A stretch of DNA of 64,000 bases, taken from Microbacterium esteraromaticum. GTDB taxonomy: Bacteria; Actinomycetota; Actinomycetes; Actinomycetales; Microbacteriaceae. Position 1 is the stretch's first letter, and each line of letters begins with the position of its first letter. The notes beneath the pieces were generated by a model. The model was not told the DNA's origin. It made no database searches and worked only from the letters and a program-made list of their open reading frames with translations. The DNA lies in assembly GCF_016907315.1 (NCBI RefSeq), contig NZ_JAFBBS010000001.1, positions 310,001-374,000 on the forward strand, written 5' to 3'. This document shows positions 27,737-30,612 of this stretch, piece by piece. The position numbers and the translations under genes were made by a program.

Positions 27737-29512
<1,776 letters not shown>

Positions 29513-29525
29513 TCAGATAACGTGC

Positions 29526-29582
29526 TCGGGCCAACACAAGCGCCGCGACGAGGAAGGCCCGATGATCAGGACTCGTCGCGGC
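29526..29582 (-). promoter_or_regulatory. LEU-type pseudoknot in the leuA leader
   Basis: Two interlocking arm pairs, listed in RNA order: A (29582-29572, GCCGCGACGAG), B (29562-29556, TCGGGCC), C (29552-29542, pairs perfectly with A, 11 bp), D (29532-29526, pairs perfectly with B, 7 bp). The A-C and B-D helices interlock as a pseudoknot and begin within the last codons of the leader peptide. A conserved pseudoknot called the LEU element is known upstream of actinobacterial leuA. Assignment to it is by position and topology only. Confidence 0.75.
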
Positions 29583-29613
29583 AGCTAAGAAGAAGCAGAC
29601 CGCCCAGAGGCAT
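29566..29613 (-). CDS. leuA leader peptide (15 aa, four consecutive Leu)
   Basis: ATG at 29613 opens a 15-codon frame reading MPLGGLLLLSCRDES followed by TGA. Five of 15 residues are Leu; three of the four in the run are CTT, a rare leucine codon in this GC-rich genome. The ATG lies 6 nt after the -10 hexamer TAGCAT, so the peptide would be translated from the first base of the mRNA. The distal codons form arm A of the downstream pseudoknot. Stalling at the Leu codons when charged tRNA-Leu is scarce would change which helices can form. No peptide-level evidence is available. Confidence 0.78.
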   Translation of the reverse strand: MPLGGLLLLSCRDES

Positions 29614-29619
29614 GCCTCG

Positions 29620-29625
29620 ATGCTA
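29620..29625 (-). promoter_or_regulatory. -10 box of leuA leader transcript
   Basis: TAGCAT on the minus strand, ending 6 nt before the leader peptide ATG. Transcription is predicted to start at that ATG. Confidence 0.65.
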
Positions 29626-29661
29626 GCACCTCGCTGAGCACAATGCTCACCCTGGCGCTCA

Positions 29662-30612
29662 TCACGGGATCAGCGCGATCTTCCCGCCCGGATGCCCCTC
29701 CGCGAGGAGCGCGAGCGCCTGCGGCGCCTGAGCAAGCGGATACTCATGCGCGACGGGAACGATGAGCTCGCCCCGTTCCGCCGCCTCGACGAGGCGGGTG
29801 CGCACGGCATCGCGGTATCTCGCGGTCGCGGGATCGGAGCCCGAGCTCGCCAGGAACCCGTGCTCGGCCGCCGAACCAGGGGCGGCGATCGTGACGATCC
29901 GCCTGCGGTCTGGCACAAGGGCGATCGACGCGTCCGTCGCCTCGGTCGTGCCAGCGGCATCGAGGGCCGCGTCGATGGCCCCGACCCCTGCATGTGCCAT
30001 CGCCTCGCGCACGTGCGATGCGAGCATCCCGTCGCCGTACTCGACGGGAATCCCGCCGAAGCGTCGCACCTCGTCGAAGCGGGCCCGGCTCGCCGTGCCG
30101 ATGATCCGGATGCCCTGCATCGCCGCCTGCTGAAGAACGCTCACTCCGACAGCACCGGATGCGGCGTGCAGCAGCAGCGTCTCGCCGCGCATCGCGCCGA
30201 CGGCGTGCAGCATCGCCGCTGCGGTGGTGCCTGCGAGCAGCAGGTTGGCCGCCTGCGCGTGACTCAGCGCGCGGGGTTTGCGCAGCACCTTCTGTGCCGG
30301 GACCGTGAGCTCTGAGGCGTACCCTCCACGCACGCGGAAAGCGATGACCTCATCGCCGACAGCGACCGGTCCGGTGACGATCTCGGTGCCAGGGCCGACA
30401 GCCGTCACGACGCCGGAGATCTCGTAGCCGATGGGAACGGGGAGCTCGACACCCGCGCGAGCGGTTGCGACATGCTTCGCGTCCGCCGGGTTGACCCCGG
30501 CCGCGTGCACGCGGATGGTCAGCTCGCCGGCGTCCGGAGCCGCGACATCGAAGGGCTCGAGACGCCACCCCTCAGGCGAACCCCACTCGTGGGCGACCCA
30601 GTGCTCGGCCAT
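29662..30612 (-). CDS. NADP-dependent quinone oxidoreductase-like protein
   Basis: A 316-residue medium-chain dehydrogenase/reductase of the quinone oxidoreductase branch. It has a GroES-like N-terminus (VHAAGVNPADAKHVATARAG, GYEISGVVTAVGPGT) without the zinc-binding Cys cluster, and a Rossmann domain (LLLHAASGAVGVSVLQQAAMQG). The substrate is unknown. ATG 30612 is 14 nt after the era stop, so it is probably the last gene of the hrcA-dnaJ-era operon. No functional link to its neighbours is evident. Confidence 0.87.
   Translation of the reverse strand: MAEHWVAHEWGSPEGWRLEPFDVAAPDAGELTIRVHAAGVNPADAKHVATARAGVELPVPIGYEISGVVTAVGPGTEIVTGPVAVGDEVIAFRVRGGYASELTVPAQKVLRKPRALSHAQAANLLLAGTTAAAMLHAVGAMRGETLLLHAASGAVGVSVLQQAAMQGIRIIGTASRARFDEVRRFGGIPVEYGDGMLASHVREAMAHAGVGAIDAALDAAGTTEATDASIALVPDRRRIVTIAAPGSAAEHGFLASSGSDPATARYRDAVRTRLVEAAERGELIVPVAHEYPLAQAPQALALLAEGHPGGKIALIP

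Follow-up and report, generated by a model that had tools for sequence, protein, structure and literature searches.

A LEU element with a leucine-codon leader upstream of leuA in Microbacterium esteraromaticum, and its relatives in Actinomycetes, as candidate ribosome-sensed attenuators

Results

A leucine-run leader and two interlocked helices lie upstream of leuA

The window, that is, the whole stretch of 64,000 nucleotides analysed here, carries leuA on its minus strand, preceded by a short leader frame that runs into a pseudoknot (Table 1). The nearest named leuA loci, among the best 80 of 593 matches, came from Microbacterium. A preliminary description of this DNA had listed a TAGCAT -10 box, a gap of 6 nt and a 15-codon Leu leader frame, and all three were read directly from the sequence, with 6 nt between TAGCAT and the leader ATG. 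The conserved spacing of this box in relatives suggested that the leader is probably leaderless. A scan of positions 29400-29750 found no two-hexamer sigma-70 promoter, -35 element included, so the promoter call rests on the -10 box with its extended TG. The same scan returned no intrinsic terminator (hairpin followed by a U-tract), in agreement with the earlier statement that the leader lacks a U-rich terminator. The CTT codons had been called rare, and CTT is indeed absent among the 46 leucine codons of leuA in the window; under standard wobble rules, CTT and the common CTC share one tRNA.

Table 1 Features of the leuA leader region in the window and the second element of the same genome
Feature	Position	Strand	Basis or context
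-10 box TAGCAT	29620..29625	-	Read directly; TG in extended -10 position (TGC-TAGCAT)
Leader ORF, 15 codons, MPLGGLLLLSCRDES + TGA, probably leaderless	29566..29613	-	Sequence; Leu-run leaders in relatives
Leader start codon ATG	29613-29611	-	
Leader stop codon TGA	29568-29566	-	
Presumed sensor codons CTG CTT CTT CTT (Leu 6-9), forming most of the P1 5' arm as well	29587..29598	-	Conserved final CTT; paired in the MFE fold
Pseudoknot arm A, last leader codons	29572..29583	-	Pairing with C, shuffles, alignment
Pseudoknot arm B	29556..29562	-	Pairing with D, swap and permutation tests
Pseudoknot arm C, partner of A	29541..29552	-	RNAalifold prediction with compensatory changes
Pseudoknot arm D, partner of B	29526..29532	-	Pairing with B, swap and permutation tests
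P1 3' arm AAGAGAAGCAGCC, overlapping the likely leuA ribosome-binding site	29498..29510	-	MFE fold, 13 pairs
leuA, 2-isopropylmalate synthase, 584 aa (ATG at 29491)	27737..29491	-	NCBIfam NF002991 / TIGR00970 above cut-off
Second LEU element, leader MRRVVLLLSSRDGTSI, TAAACT box	L248 2168-2245 = G000:C1:3205167-3205244 (outside the window)		Upstream of leuCD

The leader is conserved across the class

Leaders were collected at 210 leuA loci, 110 from the family (30 plus the best 80 of 593 matches, including near-duplicates such as L008 and L054) and 100 from elsewhere in the class (102 matches were picked from the list and 100 were retrieved). A leader with a Leu run was present at 206 of them, confirming the earlier expectation that relatives would have Leu codons at this place; in the four loci that fell outside the leader search rule, the hairpin arms were still visible on inspection. 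The start codon, -10 box and reading frame were conserved across elements. A TAnnnT box stood 5-9 nt ahead of the start in 193/206 leaders and 10 nt ahead in the remaining 13, as compared with 9/1679 (5-9 nt) for other ATG or GTG codons in the same stretches; the choice among alternative leader starts favoured boxed starts in both the leuA and the leuC sets. The final Leu codon was CTT in 192 of the 206 leaders, CTC in 13 and CTG in one, whilst in 77 leuA genes, which served as the codon-usage reference, CTT made up 1.9% of 3414 Leu codons. The leader stop followed 3-10 codons past the Leu run.

Covariance model R1 matched 83/85 genomes of the family; the two without a match (G005 and G015) also had no leuA match. 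It matched 133/138 genomes of the class and 29/198 genomes of the phylum at E <= 0.01, the latter search using stricter filters with which weak matches may be lost. The only strong matches outside the class in the phylum set, in G608 and G529, were both upstream of leuA. Weak matches outside the class (L313-L317), with no leucine gene nearby, were taken as chance, as were weak matches L270, L271 and L328-L331. Searching Rfam 15 with a lax threshold over 28500-30500 gave six matches at E<=10, all far below the gathering score and none over 29498-29625, and four loci with other copies of the element gave nothing at gathering score. A plasmid search returned one Microbacterium record, under leuA.

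The A-C and B-D helices are interlocked and covary at the class level

The preliminary description had placed the end of the leader in an interlocked pseudoknot made of an A-C helix of 11 bp and a B-D helix of 7 bp. This pairing was confirmed: A-C comprises 11 Watson-Crick pairs plus an outer U-G, B-D comprises 7 bp, and the 3' end of the pseudoknot lies 34 nt from leuA. None of 20 dinucleotide shuffles of the leader sequence in the window (locus L001) contained an equally good interlocked helix pair. Across the 206 leaders, no shuffle equalled the real sequence in 170 cases and at most one did so in 195. Folded as a nested structure, the 129-nt leader had an energy of -53.3 kcal/mol, against -42.3 +/- 3.8 for 200 shuffles (z -2.9), and 2/200 shuffles were as good. 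Arm A began 3 or 5 nt past the Leu run in 190/206 leuA elements, and A-C consisted of 10-13 contiguous pairs in 190/206.

Alignment A1 contained 93 sequences of canonical geometry, excluding 20 non-canonical loci and most family loci; since it was picked for this geometry, its covariation counts lean towards the structure. When no structure was supplied, RNAalifold predicted A-C from A1, with compensatory changes in 6/11 pairs. Over A-C plus B-D, double changes were found in 13/18 pairs (132 cells, as compared with 41.6 +/- 5.5 after shuffling), and sliding the partners by 1-3 columns lowered pairing from 86% to 40-66%. Paired cells amounted to 99% for A-C and 62-70% for B-D, the lower value being partly due to misalignment of D in some rows.

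Exchanging arms between elements gave a comparison in which 193/206 elements were selected for A:C only and not for B-D. In the class set (86 elements), own A:C arms scored 30.7 and swapped arms 25.5, and B:D scored 18.3 as compared with 16.5 (top of 30 permutations, 16.9). Three of the four class-set controls were null; the fourth, C with the following stretch, scored 15.16 as compared with 14.57 (top of 30 permutations, 14.90). Because this control also passed all 30 permutations, small class-set excesses mean little. In the family set (107 elements), A:C scored 29.4 own and 27.5 swapped, and the B:D signal was weak (13.54 own, 13.12 swapped, 13.38 shuffled, top of 30 permutations 13.44). 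We also used elements outside the R1 training set, found by R1 or by R2, a model with the sensor codons removed. The B:D score was matched or beaten by 1/200 permutations in 30 leuC elements (L285, a leuC element with no 8-bp A:C, was excluded) and by 0/200 in 14 leuB elements, and the A:post and loop:C controls were null in both sets. By these comparisons, A-C and B-D covary at the class level; the covarying pairs whose absence would have counted against the preliminary description were present.

The Leu codons can pair with the leuA Shine-Dalgarno sequence

In the MFE fold, the Leu codons CTGCTTCTTCTT and the two G residues before them paired with AAGAGAAGCAGCC through three blocks of 2, 8 and 3 Watson-Crick pairs (13 in total), forming a base stem (P1) with a duplex energy of -20.6 kcal/mol. 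The end of the purine-rich AAGAGAAGCAGCC lies 6 nt ahead of the leuA start. The codons presumed to sense leucine can therefore, in the predicted fold, also cover the leuA ribosome-binding site. P1 is described in PMC1262725 and was overlooked in the preliminary description.

Pairing between the Leu run and the stretch before the start was scored by group, with bulges allowed (Table 2). Complementarity exceeded that of shuffled sequences in every group, and codon choice lends moderate support to P1 near the window. In the class group, synonymous recodings paired slightly better than the real codons. In three groups, own pairings were nominally ahead of swapped ones, by roughly 1 kcal/mol. The gain was zero in Microbacterium-like loci (-13.50 own and -13.53 swapped), where no covariation was seen. 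One reading is that CUC and CUU codons mimic the 16S anti-Shine-Dalgarno sequence and would pair with most Shine-Dalgarno sequences. A cruder test in a 45-nt window around the leuA start gave equal own and swapped scores, and a gapless test placed 42/206 loci at the 5% level.

Table 2 Pairing energies between the Leu run and the sequence ahead of the start codon (kcal/mol)
Group	Own	Synonymous recoding	Shuffled	Swapped	Loci beating 95% of recodings
Microbacterium-like leuA (30)	-13.5	-11.1	-10.0	-13.5	17/30
Other family leuA loci (79)	-12.8	-12.1	-10.5	-11.8	14
Class leuA loci (97)	-12.6	-13.0	-9.2	-11.5	7
leuC elements (30 of 31 entered, 5 skipped, 25 scored)	-11.6	-10.3	-8.6	-10.6	10/25

A second element precedes leuCD in the same genome

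R1 detected a second LEU element in this genome, at 54.3 bits, upstream of leuC-leuD as assigned by NCBIfam; the remaining matches in the genome scored at most 23.3 bits. R2 recovered the same two elements, its third match scoring 24.1 bits. At least two R1 matches were present in 56/85 family genomes. We read 60 further regions, mostly second copies from genomes with multiple matches, together with a few single matches near a divergent leuA or outside the class. They lay upstream of leuC (30), the main leuA (6), a leuA paralogue 54-57% identical (6), a distant leuA 26-27% identical (3), leuB (8) or none of these (7); L255-L257 were left out of the analysis. The leuC leaders, including the one in this genome, had a TAnnnT box 4-9 nt ahead of the start in 31/31 cases and a final CTT in 31/31. 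In L306, L307 and L308 the element stands before a divergent LeuA-like gene with 26-27% identity to the window's leuA, indicating that it was kept despite the different enzyme type.

leuB-type elements carry leucine, isoleucine and valine codons

Seventeen leuB-type elements, all from other families of the class, were read (L249, L250, L321-L325, L327, L332-L339 and L326). L326, whose leader (VGYSCDDEAPRTSTCRDGA) is degenerate and has no branched-chain run, was set aside, and the 16 other leaders resemble MRSVLVLIECRGEAY or MLWSVRILSCRDEAR. Leu, Ile and Val codons all occurred before the conserved CR/SR in 15/16 leuB-type leaders, as compared with 0/234 leuA and leuC leaders, a set that excludes three class leaders lacking the R motif (Fisher p 3e-23, overstated because the sequences are related). 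Either Ile or Val was found in the sensor window of 39/234 leuA and leuC leaders. The sensor codons therefore match the downstream genes on one scaffold, which speaks for sensing by a ribosome that translates the leader. The Val codon GTA occurred once in 14/16 leuB-type leaders and accounted for 1.9% of Val codons in 14 leuB genes; its use in the leaders might relate to slow decoding or to pairing of the RNA.

ilvE followed leuB in 16/17 stretches (L332 was the exception), and some stretches had a citramalate synthase gene further downstream. Between the element and leuB, 16/17 stretches (L249, L250, L321, L323-L327 and L332-L339) contained a small ORF with a shared core such as AxQEAMDRRDNGG or RSLDLRD...RPDDN. 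Five of these ORFs gave no NCBIfam match and a single weak Pfam match below cut-off; two longer members had many homologues, of which the named ones were annotated as hypothetical or uncharacterized protein. The small ORF adjoins the element and may be its direct target. In L249, a G+C-rich hairpin of 13 pairs with a loop of 5 and no U-tract lies at 2131-2161, between the small ORF and leuB, and is a possible terminator.

Discussion

The LEU element was described upstream of leuA in most Actinobacteria studied as a Leu-run ORF, a pseudoknot, a base stem that involves the Shine-Dalgarno sequence, and an alternative hairpin on that stem; one copy lay in a Bifidobacterium transposase gene, and the mode of regulation was left unsolved, a bound protein being favoured (Seliverstov et al. 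2005, PMC1262725). The window shares four of these traits: it has a Leu-run ORF before leuA in an actinobacterium, two interlocked helices, and a base stem between Leu codons and the Shine-Dalgarno sequence. The identity with the LEU element put forward in the preliminary description was borne out by leader, pseudoknot and position. The window thus holds a new, well-formed LEU element, in a species that is new to the set of PMC1262725. Whereas the text of that paper has LEU only before leuA and one transposase gene, we also found it before leuCD of the same genome and before leuA paralogues and, in other genomes, as a Leu/Ile/Val version before a small ORF, leuB and ilvE. No report of leuC or leuB leaders of LEU type was found in searches of open-access papers, and the wider targets and the codon swap go beyond what was found in print.

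Leaders of this kind have been noted in other genera. According to the available part of PMC8079986, S. lividans leuL1 (MRFGLLLLSCRGEGL) is leaderless and has no typical terminator; it shares LLLLSCR with the window leader, differs in its peptide ends, and is presented there with no mention of a pseudoknot. Corynebacterium leuL is mentioned in PMC4046766, PMC5784534, PMC6892785, PMC3890552 and PMC8709942, where Neshat et al. 2014 is cited. In PMC8709942 and PMC5784534, leuL of C. glutamicum and C. diphtheriae has, like the window leader, four consecutive Leu codons before leuA but a different peptide tail, LLLLRRGGSQ; the transcription start site of C. diphtheriae leuL was not assignable (PMC5784534). 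The ilvB-II motif of Corynebacterium (PMC10272879) also has its sensor codons within a leader ORF. It is a trp-type transcription attenuator with predicted terminator and antiterminator stems, whereas no terminator was found for the window element.

We consider it somewhat better than an even bet that the LEU element is a ribosome-sensed translational attenuator of leuA. Transcription would start at the leader ATG, and a ribosome would load at once on a transcript that begins with the leader. When leucine is plentiful, this ribosome would pass the Leu codons and exit at the TGA; the freed Leu codons would pair with the leuA Shine-Dalgarno sequence to form P1, whose two ends would be held together by the A-C/B-D pseudoknot, and little leuA would be translated. 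Under a shortage of charged tRNA-Leu, the ribosome would stall on the Leu codons and block P1, so that the ribosome-binding site would presumably open and leuA would be made; this direction of control is itself inferred. Since no terminator was found and the Leu codons are able to pair with the Shine-Dalgarno sequence, translational attenuation is the simplest account. In its favour are the parts themselves, their conservation and covariation, the missing terminator and the match between sensor codons and downstream genes. Against it are the weak covariation of P1, the lack of a -35 element in the scan and the behaviour of Leu-codon mutants as cited in PMC1262725. From Craster 1999, as cited there, some leader mutations of S. 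coelicolor leuA had effects inconsistent with classical attenuation, and a later passage of PMC1262725 says that Leu-codon mutations had no influence on regulation. Changed Leu codons would break the sensor and the stem together, which might explain these odd results.

The leading competitor, to which we assign a distinctly smaller chance, is transcription attenuation, in which the leader ribosome would determine whether RNA polymerase halts ahead of leuA, the stop being brought about by Rho or by a stable, U-tract-free A-C hairpin. C. glutamicum leuL has been discussed in these terms in PMC6892785, PMC4046766 and PMC8709942, and the first two report that leuA and leuL were up after 5 min of total starvation; an untranslated leuA could itself expose RNA to Rho. 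This account has to contend with the lack of an intrinsic terminator in 29400-29750 and of a conserved U-tract in relatives, where the stretch from leader stop to leuA had at most 4 T per 8 nt in 138/206 loci and at least 5 in 68, counted without requiring a hairpin. The S. lividans authors likewise report no typical terminator (PMC8079986).

The pseudoknot might instead act as a roadblock 3-5 nt past the last Leu codon, sharpening the stall or causing recoding, rather than as a scaffold that closes P1. The short distance from the Leu run to arm A and the 10-13 contiguous A-C pairs, each seen in 190/206 elements, would suit such a role, yet the leader stop comes 3-10 codons past the Leu run and a roadblock alone leaves the effect on leuA unexplained; we regard this as improbable. 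Fainter still is the case for a regulatory protein bound to the pseudoknot, with the leader ORF secondary. Orthologues of ML1624, which have a DEAD-box domain, were proposed for this in 2005, and PMC1262725 argued for protein binding from phylogenetic patterns and the reported null effect of Leu-codon mutations; conservation of the structure across the class also agrees with it. Protein binding would not call for sensor codons that change with the genes behind them while the scaffold stays the same, and the leader has retained its -10 box, start codon and frame.

Returning to ribosome-sensed translational attenuation, its extension to the whole set of targets seems to us evenly poised. LEU would then be a leaderless attenuator of translation that can be reprogrammed and that acts throughout the branched-chain pathway in Actinomycetes. 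The same scaffold would bear Leu codons when it stands before leuA, a leuA paralogue or leuCD, and a mix of Val, Ile and Leu codons when the next gene encodes the conserved small protein, with leuB and ilvE behind it. In the form with Leu codons, CUC and CUU would double as an anti-Shine-Dalgarno sequence, shutting off the following gene except when a starved ribosome occupies them. The LEU elements form a family without an Rfam 15 match. Their natural swap of sensor codons on one scaffold makes ribosome sensing directly testable for a mechanism left open in 2005, and leuCD, leuB-ilvE and the conserved small protein as targets would outline a branched-chain amino acid regulon.
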